Source: Flavisolibacter nicotianae (GTDB taxonomy: Bacteria; Bacteroidota; Bacteroidia; Chitinophagales; Chitinophagaceae). From it: a stretch of DNA of 64,000 bases. Below the pieces are notes generated by a model. It was not told the DNA's origin and made no database searches. It saw only the letters and a program-made list of their open reading frames with translations. The position numbers and the translations under genes were made by a program. Location of the stretch: positions 186,001 to 250,000 of the forward strand of contig NZ_RBCI01000001.1 of assembly GCF_003628535.1 (NCBI RefSeq). The letters run 5' to 3'. Shown here piece by piece: positions 2,668 to 56,399 of the stretch; the stretch's first letter is position 1, and each line of letters opens with the position of its first letter.

Positions 2668-5385
2668 TCACAACCGTCCCAGTTCGGACTGCATGCGCCG
2701 CACCCGGTCGGCCAACTTTTCGGAGGTCAGGTTTTCCCGCAGGCTGTCCACTTTGATGGGAAAGCAAAACGGGGTCAGGCGTTCCGGGTAGGTAAGAACG
2801 ATCCTGGATTTCTGTACCCGCTGCAGCATTTCCCGCAGGCGTGCTTCTTCCATTTGCTGGTCGAACACTTCCTGGTAGGCCTGGCGGATCAGCACATTAC
2901 CGGCATCGTATTCATTGAACACGTTGAACAGCAAACCGGCCGAGGCCTGCAGGTGTCTTGCTTTTTTGTATTCGCCGGGAAAACCCTGGAAGATCAGTCC
3001 ACCGATGACGGCAATGTCGCGGAACTTGCGCTTGGCCATTTCGGTTGCATTCACGCTGCGCTGGATATCTTCAATCAGGTTAGCGGGAGAAAAAAGCTCG
3101 TACACATTGCTATCGTCGACGGGGATTGGCTGGTCGCTCAGCAGCTCAAAGCCGTAATCGTTCATGGCAATGGAAAACGTAATGGGCGTAATACGGGAGA
3201 TGCGATATGCAAGAAGCGCCGCCATGGCTTCGTGCACCAGCCTTCCTTCGAAAGGATAGACAAAGAGGTGAAAGCCGTCGCGGGTTTCGATCTGCTCGAT
3301 GAGCAGCTCGGCTTCTTTCGGCAGGTGCGAAAGGCGCCGCTGGAGGTCGAACAGCGGCTGCAGTACCTCCAACTCTACCGGCATCTTTCCAGGGGTTTGC
3401 CGTTTCCCGTTTGACGATTCACCCCTTACGGCCCCCGCATCGTCCACCGTCTGCCGCAGCACTTTTCCCAGGCTGGCCGACAGGGGCAGGCGGCCACCCA
3501 TCCAGCTCGGGATGAGCGCATTTTTCTTGGTGGATTTTTTTACAAAAGCCGTCATTTCCTTGATGGTGACCAGCTCTACATGGCGCCCTGCCAGCGTAAA
3601 GGCATCCCCCGGCTCCAGCCGCGAGATAAAGCTCTCTTCAATAACACCGACATAGCCGCCGCCCAAGAATTTCACCTTCATCATGTTGTCGCTGACGATG
3701 GTGCCGATGTGCAGGCGGTGGCGCATGGCGATGCGGCGGCTGTTGATCCTGTACACGCCGGCCTCCACCTCCACTTTTTTGTATTCGTCGTATTGCTGCA
3801 GGGCATTGCCGCCGGAGGTGATGAAATAGAGCATCTCGTTCCATTCGTCTTCGGTGAGTTCGGCAAAACAATTGGTGGCCTTTACTTCTTCAAAAATGAC
3901 GGAGGGAATAAAGCCATCGGAACAAGCCAGGGTGCAGAGGTATTGCACCAGCACGTCGTAACAAAGCAGCAGGGGCTCGCGGCTTTCGATGAACTGTTCG
4001 CCGATCGCCGACTTGAGGGCCGCGGCTTCGATCAGCTCCAGTGAATGGGTGGGTAAAAAATAAATGCGGCTGATGGCCTCGGGACTGTGGCCGCTCCGGC
4101 CTGCCCGTTGCAGAAAGCGGGCAACACCTTTGGGCGAGCCAACCTGGATGACCGTTTCGACAGGCCGGAAATCAACGCCCAGGTCCAGGCTGGCCGTGCA
4201 GACAACCGCTTTAAGCTTGCCCTCGTGGAGGGCTTCTTCCACCCAGGTTCGCAGCTCCTTTTCGATGCTGCCGTGGTGCAGGGCCAGGGCACCGGCCAGG
4301 TGCGGGGCGATGGTGAGCAGGGTTTGGTACCACAGTTCACTCATGCCGCGGGTGTTGATGAAGATCAGCGTTGTGCGGCTTTCTTCCAGGATGGGCAGGA
4401 TCTTCGCGGCGAGCTTGATGCCCAGGTGACCGGCCCAGGGATATTTTTCGATTTCATCGGGCAGCACGGAAAGGATTTCCAGTTGTTTGTGCAGCTTGGC
4501 CCGAACGATGGTTCCCACCTCACCCCGGCCCTCCGGGGGAAAGCCCTCCTGCCCTCCAAGGGGCGAGTGGCCTGGTTGCGAAGGCCCGCTTTGCGGCGAC
4601 TCCACTTTCAGCAATTTCAGTGGTGCCAGCAGGACGTCTTTTGCTTGTTCCAGGTTGCCGATCGTTGCCGAGATCCCCCAAATGGACAAAGCCTCCCTGC
4701 CCCCCAAGGGGGGAGTGGCCATCTCACTATCCTCGCTTTTCGACGAAGCATTTTTCTTTTTGGATTTTCCGCCGGGTATGGGTTGTGCATCGGCCACATC
4801 TTCCCTGGAAGGTGCGGCGGCCCGACAACCAACAATCCGGCTGAGGGCCAGTTCTACCTGCACGCCCCGTTTGCTGCCAACCAGTTCGTGCCACTCGTCG
4901 GCCGCAATGATCTTCAGCGTGCGGAAGAGATCCGCATAGCCTTTTTGGGTGAGCAGTAGGTGAAGGCTTTCGGGGGTAATGATGAGGACTTCGGGCATCT
5001 GCCGCTTTTGCTTTGCCCGGTCGGCCGTGGAGGTGTCACCATTCCTAATCCCCACCTGCCAGCGCATGTCCAGTTCAAAAAGCACTTCTTCCATGGCCCG
5101 GCCAATGTCCTTGGCCAGTGCTCGCAGGGGAGTGATCCAAATCAGCTGCAGGCCATTTTTCGCTTTGGATTGGTAGGTCTTTGGATGCAGGTTAATGAAC
5201 TGAATCACGGCGCCCAAAAACACGGAGAAGGTCTTGCCCGTTCCCGTCGGCGCATTCACCAAACCGCTTTCGCCGTTGCAGATATGCCGCCAGGCTTCTT
5301 CCTGGTAGGCAAAGGGTTTGTATCCCCTGGTGGCGAGCCAGTCCCGTACCACCGCGTACCCTTTCGATTTCTTCAGGTCCTTCAT
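2668..5385 (-). CDS. Ligase-associated DNA damage response DEXH-box helicase (Lhr-core type)
   Basis: 905 residues when started at MKDLKKSK; the open frame runs 29 codons further upstream, but that stretch looks non-coding and TAGATTTA (5398-5391) lies just before this ATG. Walker A APTGTGKT is at about residues 45-52 and the DEWH box at 163-166; GSPKGVARFLQRAGRSGHSP is the motif VI region. It is expected to be an ATP-driven 3'-5' DNA translocase working with PdeM, the ligase and the exonuclease. It is longer than I would expect for the family. Part of the excess comes from GC-rich repeats read in frame at about residues 222-232 and 272-290 (PPLGGREAL, SPLGGQEGFPP). A polar stretch near residues 653-665 is similarly low in complexity. 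Confidence 0.92.
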   Translation of the reverse strand: MKDLKKSKGYAVVRDWLATRGYKPFAYQEEAWRHICNGESGLVNAPTGTGKTFSVFLGAVIQFINLHPKTYQSKAKNGLQLIWITPLRALAKDIGRAMEEVLFELDMRWQVGIRNGDTSTADRAKQKRQMPEVLIITPESLHLLLTQKGYADLFRTLKIIAADEWHELVGSKRGVQVELALSRIVGCRAAAPSREDVADAQPIPGGKSKKKNASSKSEDSEMATPPLGGREALSIWGISATIGNLEQAKDVLLAPLKLLKVESPQSGPSQPGHSPLGGQEGFPPEGRGEVGTIVRAKLHKQLEILSVLPDEIEKYPWAGHLGIKLAAKILPILEESRTTLIFINTRGMSELWYQTLLTIAPHLAGALALHHGSIEKELRTWVEEALHEGKLKAVVCTASLDLGVDFRPVETVIQVGSPKGVARFLQRAGRSGHSPEAISRIYFLPTHSLELIEAAALKSAIGEQFIESREPLLLCYDVLVQYLCTLACSDGFIPSVIFEEVKATNCFAELTEDEWNEMLYFITSGGNALQQYDEYKKVEVEAGVYRINSRRIAMRHRLHIGTIVSDNMMKVKFLGGGYVGVIEESFISRLEPGDAFTLAGRHVELVTIKEMTAFVKKSTKKNALIPSWMGGRLPLSASLGKVLRQTVDDAGAVRGESSNGKRQTPGKMPVELEVLQPLFDLQRRLSHLPKEAELLIEQIETRDGFHLFVYPFEGRLVHEAMAALLAYRISRITPITFSIAMNDYGFELLSDQPIPVDDSNVYELFSPANLIEDIQRSVNATEMAKRKFRDIAVIGGLIFQGFPGEYKKARHLQASAGLLFNVFNEYDAGNVLIRQAYQEVFDQQMEEARLREMLQRVQKSRIVLTYPERLTPFCFPIKVDSLRENLTSEKLADRVRRMQSELGRL
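4517..4572. repeat. GC-rich palindromic repeat pair inside the helicase gene
   Basis: 4543-4572 belongs to the 30-bp family GCCTCCC...AAGG...GAGTGGC, also at 4691-4720, 35131-35160 and 56349-56378. The adjoining 4517-4540 (CACCTCACCCCGGCCCTC) is the complement of part of another dispersed element at 35481-35517. Both are read in frame in the helicase as HSPLGGQEGFPPEGRGEVG. The insertion keeps the frame open and lies between helicase motifs. Confidence 0.75.
4691..4720. repeat. GC-rich palindromic repeat, second copy inside the helicase gene
   Basis: A 30-bp copy with inverted CCCCCC-AA-GGGGGG core, read in frame on the minus strand as ATPPLGGREAL. It differs from the intergenic copy at 35131-35160 by only a few bases. 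Confidence 0.75.
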
Positions 5386-5862
5386 CCGCGTAAATCTACA
5401 ACGGGATTGCCTGGCAGGTTCCGGGAAACCAGGGAAACAGGAAGCTGAATTGCCAACGCCTTTTTCATGCACTATCCATGCTTTATCTATACATCATCCA
5501 TGCTTTCTGTCTCATCTTCTCTCGTCCTAAAATAGCTGTACAGGTGAGAGAATAAATTCTGCTATGGCTATACCGTTCGGTTGCTTCGTCCTGAACCGGC
5601 TTACCGAAAGGTTTGTTGGCTGCAGGAACCATTCCTGGGTTCTTTTTGGTTCGGTCATTTATCCATTGCTCTCCTCCGGGGAGGGGATGGCCATTTTATG
5701 AGTAGGCAGGGAGAGCCGATTTCTTACAAGAAAAGACAGTCGTATCGGCCATGGCGGAAACGATTGAAGGTTGATGAATAGTGTTGAAGCACGTTTGTGC
5801 GGACTAAAAAAAGACCCGGCAGTAGCCGGGTCTTTTCCAGTTAGGGACGGATGAAAAAATTC
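5386..5862. other. Intergenic stretch between helicase and lipoprotein gene
   Basis: No credible gene. It holds a GC-rich element of the dispersed repeat type at 5668-5692 (CTCCTCCGGGGAGGGG core) and the terminator hairpin at 5809-5836. It is the left boundary of the block that separates the two halves of the ligase-associated repair set. Confidence 0.6.
5809..5836 (-). terminator. Rho-independent terminator of the lipoprotein gene
   Basis: Perfect 12-bp arms (AAAAGACCCGGC / GCCGGGTCTTTT) with a 4-base loop; on the minus strand the stem is followed by a T run. It lies 27 bases after the stop of the 5863-7014 gene. Confidence 0.85.
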
Positions 5863-7274: not shown

Positions 7275-8792
7275 TTAGTTGGTTTTGACGACCTGCAGTC
7301 GTTCGCGTTTATCGCCCTGGATCACTTCGACAAAGTAGGTTCCCTGCTTGTACGACGCCCCTATCTGAACCGTTTGACCGGAGACGAGGTTGCGTTTTAC
7401 TTCGAGCACCTGGCCCATCTGGTTGTACACGATCATTGTAATGGCATCTGTTGTATTGGTGCCAGTTAGTTTGACGGTAAACTGGGAGATAGCCGGGTTG
7501 GGATAAGCCTGCAGTCCGAGTTTCGAAACTGGCGTTAGGTCCACTTGTGTCGCTCTTACAGTTGGTGCAACAGGTTTGGCTGAATTCGCCTGATGAATAA
7601 CAATAGAACCACCACCCAGAACTGTAATCGGATCGGCATTGTTATCCGTATTTGTTAATTGGTTATCGTAAACAATTGTACCTGTTACTGGATTCCAAAT
7701 CTTGATACGGAATTTATCAACACCACCGCCACCGCTAATTGATCCGTCAATTGCAGAAATCATAAAGTTGTAGTTACCTGTACCATTGATTGTACCCGAG
7801 CCCTGGAAGATTGCTTTTGCACCTGCAATTACCAGCGTTCCCGCAACATAACTCGAGCTCTTGAAGTTCAGATTACCAGCGTTAAACTGAAATTCCGTAT
7901 TACCGTCAACTGCGTTACTACCCTTCTTGTACTGCGCATTGAAGCCAAAGTTTGCTTTTCCAGTCAAAGTTTTGTCGGCAACATAAGCACCTGCCGGAGA
8001 ATTGATCCAACCACCACCTGTAACGAAGCCTGCATTTGGATCGTATACTGTCATATATGATGCAGCAATTGAAGTTGCACAACCCGACGCTGTTGTCGCT
8101 GTCACTTTGTAAAGGCCCAAAGCTAAGCCAGTTATCGGAGTAGTAGTTTTTGCTATTCCGCTCGCATCTGTTACAGCAGTATAGGTCGATGTCGTACCGG
8201 TGTTAGTAGTTAACGTGAATGTGAGATTAACACCGGCTACCGCAGGCAAAATCAATGCGCTCAAAGATGCAGGTGTACCCAAGGCAAATGTGTTACCGCT
8301 GCCAGACACATCGATGCTATTAATTGGCTTAACAGTTAGAATACCATCAACTGGCACAACGTTATAATTGTCAATTGTGGCACCAGTTACAGCAGGGACA
8401 ATAGGATAATTACCAGAAGATGTATTTTGACCTACAATAGTTGTATATGTATCAGTAAACATCTCTCCATTCTGTTGGCCAGTGATCTTTCCTGTAAGTG
8501 TAGGATTGTTCTGTCCACAATACTTTTCCTTATTATCTGCGGTCACTATCAGGGTGGCCTTGTTAATGGTTAGTATCCCGTTTTTGTACGTAATGCTATA
8601 GTTAGAAAGACCAGTACCTGTTGCAGCAGAGGCTACAATCGGATAGCTGCCCACCGCCGCTGTAGCCGCAGCACCGCTGGACACCAGCGTGACACTGGCT
8701 ACCGCATCGCCGTTCACCAGGTCACCCGCATGTGGGGTGAACTCTGTGCCGGCAAACGTTACCGTCTGCCCGTAGGTCCAGCGCCTTCGCAT
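7275..8792 (-). CDS. C-terminal part of a frameshifted T9SS surface protein (MBG repeats, sorting domain)
   Basis: 505 residues in this frame. It begins inside an MBG-type repeat (TYGQTVTFAGTEFTPHAGDL), continues with a second MBG repeat (TADNKEKYCGQNNPTLTG), an Ig-like segment and a domain with GGGWINSPAGAY, and ends in a T9SS type A sorting domain (LQAYPNPAISQFTVKL ... GTYFVEVIQGDKRERLQVVK). The first few residues (MRRRW) are an artefact of frame. Without one base at 8778 the sequence joins the preceding repeat as KALTYGQTV, so this is the 3' part of the gene that begins at 11206. The product, if made, would be secreted through the outer membrane by T9SS. The gene looks AT-richer than its neighbours. 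Confidence 0.8.
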   Translation of the reverse strand: MRRRWTYGQTVTFAGTEFTPHAGDLVNGDAVASVTLVSSGAAATAAVGSYPIVASAATGTGLSNYSITYKNGILTINKATLIVTADNKEKYCGQNNPTLTGKITGQQNGEMFTDTYTTIVGQNTSSGNYPIVPAVTGATIDNYNVVPVDGILTVKPINSIDVSGSGNTFALGTPASLSALILPAVAGVNLTFTLTTNTGTTSTYTAVTDASGIAKTTTPITGLALGLYKVTATTASGCATSIAASYMTVYDPNAGFVTGGGWINSPAGAYVADKTLTGKANFGFNAQYKKGSNAVDGNTEFQFNAGNLNFKSSSYVAGTLVIAGAKAIFQGSGTINGTGNYNFMISAIDGSISGGGGVDKFRIKIWNPVTGTIVYDNQLTNTDNNADPITVLGGGSIVIHQANSAKPVAPTVRATQVDLTPVSKLGLQAYPNPAISQFTVKLTGTNTTDAITMIVYNQMGQVLEVKRNLVSGQTVQIGASYKQGTYFVEVIQGDKRERLQVVKTN

Positions 8793-9008
8793 CTACTGTC
8801 AGGGTGCCCTTCGCATACGTGATGTCGTAGTTGCCCAGCCCTGTACCGGTGGCCGCACTTGCAGTGATGTCATACGACCCTTTGGCCGCTGTAGCCGCAG
8901 CACCGCTGGACACCAGCGTGACACTGGCTACCGCATCGCCGTTCACCAGGTCACCCGCATGTGGGGTGAACTCTGTGCCGGCAAACGTTACCGTCTGCCC
9001 GTAGGTCC
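8656..9008. repeat. Two 124-bp identical direct repeats, period 229, each carrying the same extra base
   Basis: 8656-8779 and 8885-9008 are identical. The period of 229 is 76 codons plus one base, so each unit shifts the frame. The extra base lies in the GGTCC at 8775-8779 and 9004-9008. Removing one base at each site restores KALTYGQTV and NKKATYGQTV. The middle reading frame (8722-8946, minus strand) encodes the MBG repeat between the two shifts. Confidence 0.85.
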
Positions 9009-35093: not shown

Positions 35094-35130
35094 GATCACC
35101 ACGGCTTTTGGCCCCCTTGATCTCCTAAAA

Positions 35131-35160
35131 GCCTCCCCGCCCTCCAAAGGAGGGAGTGGC
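35131..35160. repeat. Intergenic copy of the 30-bp GC-rich palindromic repeat
   Basis: GCCTCCC...CCAAAGG...GAGTGGC, the intergenic member of the family that also occurs in frame in the helicase gene (4543, 4691) and the ABC exporter gene (56349). Confidence 0.75.
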
Positions 35161-35194
35161 ATCTGCACAGACCCTTGCTTTTGCACGATACTTC

Positions 35195-35227: not shown

Positions 35228-35282
35228 TCTTTGCCCCGGCGGGGCATCGTATTAATAGAAAAAGAATTGTAGCGGGAATGTA

Positions 35283-35437
35283 GCTCCGAAGGAGCGAAAT
35301 ATTTATGTTTCCAGTAACAGAACAGCCATGAAGCTTCCGTTACACAGTTTATCCTGACAAAGGAAGGGCTCCGTTCAACGTTCGGAACACAGATGGACAA
35401 AAAAGGAATTCCATCCCTTGAAGGGATGGAATTCCTT
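35283..35437. repeat. Palindrome-rich intergenic segment (REP-like) between clpP and clpX
   Basis: GCTCCGAAGGAGC (35283-35295) is a 13-base palindrome followed by GAAATATTTATG, of a type I recall as dispersed in many Bacteroidota. Further on, 35403-35437 is a perfect palindrome with 17-base arms (AAGGAATTCCATCCCTT) around a single G. The arrangement resembles a REP or MITE cluster; no transposase gene is present. Confidence 0.65.
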
Positions 35438-35480: not shown

Positions 35481-35517
35481 GCTCCCTCTCCCCGGAAAGA
35501 GGGCCGGGGTGAGGTGA
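35481..35517. repeat. GC-rich dispersed repeat upstream of clpX
   Basis: GCTCCCTCTCCCCGGAAAGA continuing into GGGCCGGGGTGAGGTG. Part of its complement (CACCTCACCCCGGCCCTC) is embedded in frame in the helicase gene at 4517-4534. Confidence 0.7.
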
Positions 35518-54590: not shown

Positions 54591-56399
54591 ATGAAAGTTT
54601 TGCTCAATTATCTTAAACCATACAAGGGACTTGTGTTCCTGGTGCTGCTGCTGGCGGCCATGAACATTGGGTTCTCCCTGATCGATCCCATCATCTTTGG
54701 CCGGCTGATTGACCTGGCGAACAGGTATACCAACAACAAATCCGCCTATCCTTCTTTCTTCTGGAGTTTTGCCACGCCGGTGCTTTGGCTGCTGGGTGCT
54801 TCCATTGGCGTGGCCATGGTGAGCCGCATTGCCAAAAACTTCCAGGATTATTTCCTCAATGTCATTCAGCAAAAATTCGGGGCAAAGGTTTTTACCGATG
54901 GCCTCAAGCATGCCATGCGCCTGCCCTACCAGGAATTTGAAGACCAGCGCAGCGGCGAAACGTTGAGCATTCTGCAAAAAGTGCGGACAGATACTGAGCG
55001 GTTCATGAACTCGTTTGTCAACGTTTTATTTACGGTTATCGTGGGCATCGTTTTCGTAGCCATTTTTGCCTCCAATATCCACTGGTCGCTTCCATTCATC
55101 TATTTCGGCGGCATTGCCCTGCTGGTGGTGATCTCGAACCTGTTGAGCAAAAAAGTCAAGACCATTCAAAAAGTCATCGTTTCGCAAACAACCTCCCTGG
55201 CCGGCACTACAACGGAAAGCTTGCGCAACATCGAACTGGTGAAAAGCCTTGGGCTGACAGGCCAGGAAGTGGAACGCCTGAACAAAAACACCTACAAGAT
55301 TCTCGGTCTTGAACTGACCAAGGTAAAACGTATCCGCAGCATTTCGTTTGTACAGGGCACCTTTGTGAACACGCTGCGGCAGGTGATTCTTTTTATGTTG
55401 TTGTGGGTGGTGTACCAGGGTAAATTATCGGCCGGGCAACTGGCCACCATGCAGATCTTTTCCTTTTTTGTTTTTGGTCCGCTGCAGGATATCGGCAACA
55501 TTCTTTTGAGTTATCGTGAAGCCGAAGCCTCGCTCAACAATTTTGAAAACCTGATGAAGAAAGAGCCCGAGAAAGAGCCGGGCCAGCCCAGGCATCTAGG
55601 CCCCGTGCAGACACTGGAGTTCCGCCACGTTTCGTTCAAACACCAGACGGCGCAACACAAGGCCATCGACAACATTTCCTTCAAAACACAAAAAGGCGAA
55701 ACCATTGCGTTTGTGGGCCCGTCGGGTTCGGGAAAAACCACGCTGATGAAATTGCTGGTGGGTTTGTATCGTCCGCTCGAAGGCAATATTTTTTACAATA
55801 GCCTGGACGAAAACAGCATCTTCTTCGATGACCTGCGCAGGCAGATCGGCTTCGTTACACAGGATACACAACTCTTTAGCGGCACGATCCGCGAAAACCT
55901 CCTGTTCGTAAACCCGGAAGCATCGGAAGACGATCTTTTGGATGCGTTGCAAAAAGCATCCTGCAACAATCTTTTGCTTCGTGCCGAGAAAGGTATCGAT
56001 ACGATGATCGGTGAAGGCGGCCTGAAATTATCGGGCGGCGAAAAGCAGCGTTTGTCCATTGCCCGTGCGCTGATCCGCAAACCCAACCTGCTGATCTTCG
56101 ACGAAGCCACATCCGCATTGGATTCGCTGACGGAAGAAGAGATCGGCAAAACCATCCGCACGGTTTCGTCGCTGCAAAACCAGATCACCATTCTCATTGC
56201 GCACCGCCTGTCGACCATCATGCACGCCGACCGGATTTATGTGTTGGAAAGAGGCATTGTAACCGAAACCGGCACACACGAAAGCTTGCTGGAAGAAAAA
56301 GGTTTGTACTATGCCATGTGGCGGCAACAGATCGGCGAACGGAAAACAGCCCCCCTGCCCCCCAAGGGCGGCGTGGCAACCGCACAGATGCCGGCGTAA
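54591..56399 (+). CDS. ABC transporter, fused permease and ATPase (MsbA/lipid exporter type)
   Basis: 602 residues. Six membrane segments in residues 1-320 are followed by the ATPase: Walker A VGPSGSGKTTLMK, Q-loop FVTQDTQLFSGTIREN, signature LSGGEKQRLSIARAL and Walker B LLIFDEATSALDS, with IAHRLST (H-loop). It is a half-transporter that must dimerise. Context with three glycosyltransferases suggests export of a glycolipid. The last 20 or so residues (TAPLPPKGGVATAQMPA) are encoded by the GC-rich repeat, an added tail not needed by the fold. Confidence 0.92.
   Translation: MKVLLNYLKPYKGLVFLVLLLAAMNIGFSLIDPIIFGRLIDLANRYTNNKSAYPSFFWSFATPVLWLLGASIGVAMVSRIAKNFQDYFLNVIQQKFGAKVFTDGLKHAMRLPYQEFEDQRSGETLSILQKVRTDTERFMNSFVNVLFTVIVGIVFVAIFASNIHWSLPFIYFGGIALLVVISNLLSKKVKTIQKVIVSQTTSLAGTTTESLRNIELVKSLGLTGQEVERLNKNTYKILGLELTKVKRIRSISFVQGTFVNTLRQVILFMLLWVVYQGKLSAGQLATMQIFSFFVFGPLQDIGNILLSYREAEASLNNFENLMKKEPEKEPGQPRHLGPVQTLEFRHVSFKHQTAQHKAIDNISFKTQKGETIAFVGPSGSGKTTLMKLLVGLYRPLEGNIFYNSLDENSIFFDDLRRQIGFVTQDTQLFSGTIRENLLFVNPEASEDDLLDALQKASCNNLLLRAEKGIDTMIGEGGLKLSGGEKQRLSIARALIRKPNLLIFDEATSALDSLTEEEIGKTIRTVSSLQNQITILIAHRLSTIMHADRIYVLERGIVTETGTHESLLEEKGLYYAMWRQQIGERKTAPLPPKGGVATAQMPA
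56349..56378. repeat. GC-rich palindromic repeat encoding the C-terminal tail of the ABC exporter
   Basis: Copy of the family GCC(T/C)CCC...AAGG...G(A/C)GTGGC, read as APLPPKGGVA in the plus direction, opposite to the helicase copies. The stop codon follows 18 bases later. Confidence 0.75.

Follow-up and report, generated by a model that had tools for sequence, protein, structure and literature searches.

Palindromic repeats read in frame in a Flavisolibacter helicase are probably nuclease-less remnants of an unspliced DUF559 element

We analysed a 64,000-nucleotide stretch of the Flavisolibacter nicotianae genome (assembly GCF_003628535.1, contig NZ_RBCI01000001.1, positions 186,001 to 250,000), hereafter the window, in which the gene of a ligase-associated DEXH-box helicase carries GC-rich palindromic repeats that are read through in its frame. 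The repeats fall into two families, A and B. Family A is described by a covariance model, R1, against which the four copies in the window score 62.4 to 76.7 bits. We propose that the helicase palindromes are short, nuclease-less copies or remnants of an in-frame, unspliced mobile element with the structure palindrome, DUF559 nuclease, inverted palindrome, and we give this reading a probability of roughly 0.77. The helicase locus contains the following features.

2668..5472, minus strand: host gene, ligase-associated DEXH-box helicase; frame of 934 amino acids by translation; TIGR04121 1042.7 bits against a cut-off of 850
4688..4751, plus strand: family A terminal palindrome with inner tail, helicase site 1; antisense to the gene, in frame; R1 76.7 bits; peptide ...SKSEDSEMATPPLGGREA...
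4540..4604, plus strand: family A terminal palindrome with inner tail, helicase site 2; in frame; R1 64.2 bits; peptide ...PSQPGHSPLGGQEGF...
4517..4540, minus strand: family B terminal palindrome fragment, abutting the outer end of the site 2 family A copy; peptide FPPEGRGEV

The original prediction placed two palindromes of about 30 bp in this gene, together with a piece of a second element near 4517-4540. Both palindromes are real, and the coordinates first given for them are the cores of family A repeats of about 65 bp; the copy at site 1 is the best R1 match found in the genome. The additional piece is a fragment of family B, in which GGCCGGGGTGAGG (minus strand) matches exactly at 4518-4530, and by eye it resembles the ends of in-frame DUF559 elements in relatives. 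Translation confirms that all three pieces are read through in the helicase frame, as had been claimed. The two family A copies have the same orientation and lie in separate loops, so placed that the inserts flank the SATIG motif (residues 244-261 and 290-321). A structure model that used 50 orthologues along with the window protein gives pLDDT below 50 at residues 228-257 and 291-315, with neighbouring ten-residue blocks at 79-92.

Alignment with orthologues, the check proposed at the outset, shows both segments as gaps in a same-genus orthologue (G004): 87 nt are lacking at site 1 and 93 nt at site 2, each length being divisible by three. PPLGG segments in orthologues without the repeat had been named as the finding that would speak for the opposite view. 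PPLGG or SPLGG occurs in only two of 110 helicase rows, the window and its own-genome copy L023, and in none of the 108 others. Helicase relatives with a name come mainly from Chitinophagaceae, along with other Bacteroidota, which makes membership of that family very likely for the source organism. For the analysis of loop inserts, one of the 110 loci was dropped because it had no full frame, and 108 frames including the window gave 99 distinct helicases. Their inserts collect in three loops, near residues 220, 286 and 682. Among inserts of at least 10 amino acids, a GC palindrome is found in 8 of 16 at loop 286 (5.0% of control segments), in 5 of 23 at loop 682 (control 8.3%) and in 2 of 42 at loop 220 (control 3.8%), the last holding mostly other material, partly tandem repeats. 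Loop 286 is thus a repeated landing place for palindromes. Some orthologues hold other palindrome-encoded segments of different sequence in the same helicase loops, which we read as separate insertions and not as ancestral sequence. In one relative (G080), the same ligase-associated helicase holds a full DUF559 element between its WH_Lhr and DEAD_assoc domains.

Three further observations concern these loops. Residues 680-696 of the window helicase (window 3385-3435; GAVRGESSNGKRQTPGK) lie at the position of the full element in G080 and could be a worn family B remnant. The loop near residue 220, which in the window holds the first palindrome, bears apparent in-frame tandem short repeats in L024, L069 and L113 (VNGQWSMVNGQ; THDSRLTTHDS). 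In L037 and L064 the same loop holds the in-frame segment LSLSKDAPCHPEPAEG, presumably another dispersed repeat.

The full form of the element is present elsewhere in this genome. The longest close pair of family A copies encloses a DUF559 gene (PF04480), and the whole block of family A, DUF559 and family A lies in frame inside the gene of tryptophan 2,3-dioxygenase (TDO). The result is an open frame of 517 amino acids in which Pfam matches Trp_dioxygenase in two stretches with DUF559 between them. R1 scores the two ends of the element at 69.1 and 64.2 bits here, and at 54.1 and 53.2 bits in a second genome of the genus, G215. We compared the site in 10 of the 11 genus genomes with both gene halves, leaving out G217. 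Seven are empty and show an ordinary host loop, and two, this genome and G215, are full, with palindrome, DUF559 and palindrome. The remaining one, G219, has both palindromes with about 75 bases between their cores (by eye) and no nuclease. Altogether this genome has three strong DUF559 matches, one of them with a stop. The structure model of the TDO fusion was poor outside DUF559 (mean pLDDT 60; DUF559 blocks 58 to 97), and the 50 matches listed in a PDB search with it were all chains of TDO (TM-scores 0.17 to 0.27), no nuclease being among them; neither result was used.

We then counted DUF559 in coding frames of other genes. The domain is present in 27 of 60 Chitinophagaceae genomes and in 61 of 118 Bacteroidota genomes. 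Counted by hand, 30 of the 52 Chitinophagaceae matches that reach 80 bits are in stop-to-stop frames at least 282 amino acids long. In the same 60 genomes, the control domain Y1_Tnp gave, likewise by hand count, 1 of 40 matches of that strength in a long frame, and that one with internal stops. Outside Chitinophagaceae, 16 of 95 matches of at least 80 bits in the Bacteroidota set are in long frames (hand count), which suggests that the in-frame habit is stronger in Chitinophagaceae. Pfam scanning of 18 long frames found DUF559 together with a host family in all 18, and with the host on both sides in 14. As to the other four, L153 has its host domain on a single side, L134 and L172 (argB) are N-terminal fusions, and L165 runs into a contig end. 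The scanned hosts include leucyl- and methionyl-tRNA synthetase, methionine synthase, chorismate synthase, adenine deaminase, methylmalonyl-CoA mutase, HsdR, helicase and TDO; host names of unscanned copies were assigned by reading. One leuS gene (L167) holds two elements. Two candidate explanations were rejected: no splicing (Hint) domain was found by Pfam at E ≤ 0.001 in the 18 long-frame proteins, which speaks against inteins, and no Rfam match reached the gathering score in 11 DUF559 loci, with no match in the window either, which speaks against group I or II introns. The insert therefore seems to stay in the protein. Separately, a type I restriction HsdR frame (L137:106-3318) holds a GIY-YIG nuclease domain and a DUF559 domain, both in frame; other small nucleases may thus live in the same way.

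Most of the in-frame blocks inspected show palindromes on both borders by eye. The palindromes at the two borders of a block are frequently reverse complements of each other, loop bases included (for example L143, L152, L168 and L171), and two end types can be told apart by eye, one family B-like (CCTCACCCC...CCTCTCC) and one family A-like (AAGCCCCC...CCCCC). We scored each copy by the best local match between its 240-bp upstream flank and the reverse complement of its downstream flank. For Chitinophagaceae, dropping DUF559 fragments below E 1e-8 and duplicates reduced 52 rows to 50 copies, whose mean scores are 19.5 for the 31 in long frames and 19.8 for the 19 free-standing ones, compared with a mean of 11.0 and a maximum of 20 in 292 displaced control windows. 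In other Bacteroidota, 17 of 28 copies outside the set on which the idea was formed exceed the control 99th percentile. Taking all DUF559 copies together, 49 of 78 score at least 17 and 33 of 78 at least 20, while only 1.27% and 0.13% of 3000 random placements reach these values (Mann-Whitney p 8e-32); among long frames alone, 28 of 43 reach 17. These 78 copies were not drawn at random: they comprise the best-ranked loci and a further 20 stretches, among them the G080 helicase, many of which were picked for their long frames, and the unbiased proportions are the counts from the 60 and 118 genomes given above. Beyond this set, a score of 17 is reached by 9 of 12 plasmid loci from Cyanobacteria, Alphaproteobacteria and Deinococcota, and 8 score higher than every one of the five control windows belonging to them; one of the 12, on a Pseudanabaena plasmid, has DUF559 in frame in a 4.9-kb coding sequence.

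A profile of 35 DUF559 copies (A5) matched two structures, 3hrl, an endonuclease-like protein (E 2.7e-32), and 3r3p (E 5.4e-6), the latter being the homing endonuclease I-Bth0305I, described in an excerpt of PMC11879112 as a Vsr-like EDxHD enzyme. Residues D45, E56, D58, H62 and D71 are invariant in all 35 copies. The DUF559 domain gave dN/dS values of 0.10-0.25 in 7 of 11 pairs, those in which dS could be estimated, indicative of purifying selection on the predicted nuclease domain. The tree of the 78 copies groups 33 in-frame nucleases, drawn from nine unrelated host genes, in a single clade (support 98/92) without any free-standing member, so that the element has changed host gene at least eight times within the clade. 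The argB, HsdR and helicase elements fall outside it. Repeated independent insertion at one leuS site is suggested by this tree and not forced by approximately unbiased (AU) tests, and we do not claim it.

The repeats are not confined to the helicase. The original prediction had noted members of the same family elsewhere in the window, one intergenic and one coding, and both are confirmed by R1, the second overlapping the 3' end of an ABC-transporter gene. The features concerned are listed below.

35128..35193, plus strand: family A copy, intergenic; R1 62.4 bits
35480..35516, plus strand: family B copy, intergenic; boundaries by eye; same motif as in the helicase fragment at 35502-35514
54591..56399, plus strand: ABC-transporter frame by translation, its last codons inside a family A copy; Pfam ABC_tran 114.4 bits, ABC_membrane 84.2 bits
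56346..56410, plus strand: family A copy, left arm of an inverted pair; R1 63.8 bits
56530..56596, minus strand: mirror arm of the 56346 pair, weak match; R1 21.3 bits; 251 bp outer to outer

The last two rows form a 251-bp inverted pair of family A at the 3' end of the ABC-transporter gene, with one arm weak. A 25-base family A core, allowing up to three mismatches, has three occurrences in the window, compared with a mean of 0.00 in shuffled sequence. The genome-wide search for the palindrome core that had been called for (6.09 Mb, 70 contigs) gave, at the same tolerance, 19 matches against 0 for the reversed pattern, and thus further copies do exist. R1 finds at least 85 matches in the genome at E ≤ 0.1 and at least 70 at E ≤ 0.001, both lower bounds, with 150 of about 1000 first-look candidates scored. 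Across the genus, 9 of 18 genomes have R1 matches at E ≤ 0.001, with at least 70 here, at least 25 in G215, at least 24 in G230 and seven or fewer in the other six, counts that in 17 of the 18 genomes come from scoring a capped number of candidates. Among 24 close pairs (neighbours within 700 bp), 23 are inverted with ends out and 138-530 bp long, the sole exception being the direct pair in the helicase. Nine of the 19 closest copies lie inside conserved proteins (two each in the helicase, NAD synthase and TDO, and one each in RecQ, pyruvate dehydrogenase E1 and error-prone DNA polymerase), seven at protein ends, and three were assigned to neither. The palindrome part of family A is free of stops in 18-20 of 20 copies in each of the six frames.

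Several side observations belong here. Among the R1 matches listed, 67 of 85 lie on contigs C1 and C2 of the 70 (G000), as do 17 of the 19 matches of the pattern search. Two family A copies, L010 and L015, are 92% identical over 231 bp, as would be expected if a gene-less element of about 235-250 bp had spread as a unit. The window also holds a perfect 124-bp direct repeat (8656-8779 and 8885-9008, spacing 229).

The proposal that the helicase palindromes derive from a DUF559 element draws on its observed anatomy, its in-frame position, the full, nuclease-less and empty states at one site, the single nuclease clade spread over nine genes, and the purifying selection on the nuclease. We envisage that the element inserts in frame into protein-coding genes and persists in them unspliced, and that the host protein, its frame kept, would carry the nuclease as an extra surface domain and remain functional. 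Since the palindromes are nearly stop-free in any frame, any insert with a length divisible by three would mostly keep the frame in either orientation and be read as a Pro/Gly-rich linker. By analogy with homing endonucleases, the nuclease may cut DNA, and repair of the break may copy the element; the activity, the target and the copying mechanism are inferences. Gene-less pairs and single palindromes may arise by internal deletion, and the short copies may be moved in trans, while selection would keep only inserts in tolerant loops. The palindromes of the window, as ends-out pairs and singles, would then be leftovers of such internal deletion.

A number of results weigh against this proposal. 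We infer mobility, and no movement was observed. The host's own loop is missing in all three occupied TDO genes, meaning that the element replaces the loop and is not a clean insertion, and no target duplication was found at this site, where no systematic search of junctions was made. The ends in G219 match family A weakly (R1 19.0 and 16.5 bits), so another element may be their source, and a deletion of the same element need not be assumed. When the inner tail of family A is included, only 13-19 of 20 copies per frame are free of stops. Single-strand folding of the helicase inserts shows no gain over shuffles (z 0.32 and -0.16; typed consensus -1.44), so the word palindrome is justified by the symmetry of the sequence and by its recurrence, and not by folding energy. 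Inverted ends are not universal: L176 has no palindromes, the right end of L163 is incomplete, L165 is cut by the contig end, and L144, L145 and L177 have palindromes on both sides that match each other poorly (score 12). Of all 78 copies, 29 score below 17, and the 60 plasmid control windows average 13.7 with a maximum of 28, a value that high-GC controls themselves reach. As to the nuclease, dS is saturated in the other 4 of the 11 pairs and in the TDO pair, and is high or saturated overall. One origin for each host site is compatible with the AU tests (p 0.19, 0.25 and 0.38), and thus the tree does not prove that any site was hit more than once.

We weighed three other explanations. In the first, palindrome pairs exist beforehand and DUF559 genes insert into or between their arms, so that the palindromes are targets and not ends. 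The palindromes do far outnumber the nuclease in this genome (at least 85 matches against three strong DUF559 matches, one with a stop), and G219 has a pair without nuclease at the TDO site. Yet the seven empty TDO sites show an ordinary loop and no palindrome pair, both genomes with the nuclease at this site also hold both arms, and the close agreement of left and right palindromes, often down to the loop bases, speaks against it as well, making this explanation unlikely in our judgement. In the second, a RAYT (Y1_Tnp) transposase moves the palindromes, which are REP-like repeats in their own right, and DUF559 genes hitchhike. Three Y1_Tnp loci do exist in the genome, and GTAG REPs are tied to RAYTs according to an excerpt of PMC3733652. 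However, none of the three loci contains a family A or B core, R1 has a single weak match near the third (E 0.59), and the palindromes beside the two strong Y1_Tnp genes are different ones (GCTCCGTAGGAGC; GCCCCGAAGGGGC; by eye), whereas DUF559 genes bear matched inverted ends. We therefore rejected a RAYT as mobiliser and hold this second explanation to be quite improbable. The third, that the inserts are conserved helicase parts with a protein function, has almost no chance of being right: the helicase does score as a complete TIGR04121 member, but the inserts are missing from G004, and their sequences from each of the 108 other rows, on which ground ancestral helicase sequence was rejected, they lie in the low-confidence stretches of the model, and the same repeat DNA occurs in unrelated proteins.

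The strong Y1_Tnp genes (L020:1390-2030 and L021:1160-2030) each have their own flanking palindrome family (GCTCCGTAGGAGC; GCCCCGAAGGGGCGGTAATCATTAACC, by eye), and an intergenic copy resembling the first of these (GCTCCGTAGGAGC) lies in the window at about 35280-35311.

The DUF559 element shares features with several known systems. Rickettsia palindromic elements (RPEs) are likewise in-frame palindromes in probably functional proteins that are absent in orthologues, a likeness of placement. Here the repeats are the ends of a nuclease element, and the excerpted text of PMC3733652 names no nuclease partner of RPEs. The original prediction of an RPE-like family thus holds in that the repeats are dispersed, insert without breaking frames and are missing in the relatives examined; it does not hold in that, by the evidence at TDO, they are not stand-alone repeats but ends of a DUF559 element. 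It had also named in-frame palindromes as known in Rickettsia, with no known description for the present group. We likewise found no description of the present elements, but intragenic REPs are known in several species, many of them in repair genes, as reported in an excerpt of Di Nocera et al. 2013 (PMC3733652), where such insertions are considered possibly neutral because they fall in flexible linkers or loops. The repair genes among the family A hosts recall that remark on other REPs. With GTAG and CGTC REPs and their RAYTs, as described in the same excerpt, family A has in common short palindromes, frequent inverted pairs, intragenic copies and repair-gene hosts. In contrast to GTAG REPs, no GTAG tag adjoins the palindrome in its consensus, the gene associated with it is DUF559 and not a Y1 transposase, and none of the genome's three Y1_Tnp loci is flanked by family A. 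Nor is there a CGTC tag beside the palindrome, TCGTC occurring only on the other strand in the inner tail, about 25 bases away.

Inteins and intron-borne homing endonucleases resemble the element in having a nuclease in conserved genes, in several unrelated genes and from one clade, with a remote match to I-Bth0305I; they differ by the intein domain and intron RNA that are missing here. Kinship with EDxHD (Vsr-like) homing endonucleases is seen in the sequence homology to I-Bth0305I, while cleavage and homing by the element are suggested by analogy. As in miniature inverted-repeat transposable elements, short ends-out pairs share their ends with a gene-carrying form, with a weaker end match at the TDO site; here the gene encodes a Vsr-like nuclease and not a known transposase, and no target duplication was found, within the scope given above for the TDO site. 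Within the open-licence literature, with mobile-element databases outside the search, we found no publication joining DUF559 to palindromes, mobility or in-frame insertion. Each part is familiar and the combination, within that literature, is new: the element is a member of no family tested here.

If the proposal is right, in-frame palindromes in proteins would have a concrete source, an element with its own nuclease. It further points to elements that live as inteins do, but unspliced, in leuS, metG and other conserved genes, and it suggests what DUF559, a family whose function is unknown, may do. More broadly, and here we consider the odds to be even, palindrome-flanked DUF559 elements may constitute a separate, widespread mobile class that resides unspliced in reading frames and may be the source of part of the orphan REP- and RPE-like palindromes in bacterial proteins. 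With empty, full and nuclease-less sites available within one genus, the mechanism is directly testable.

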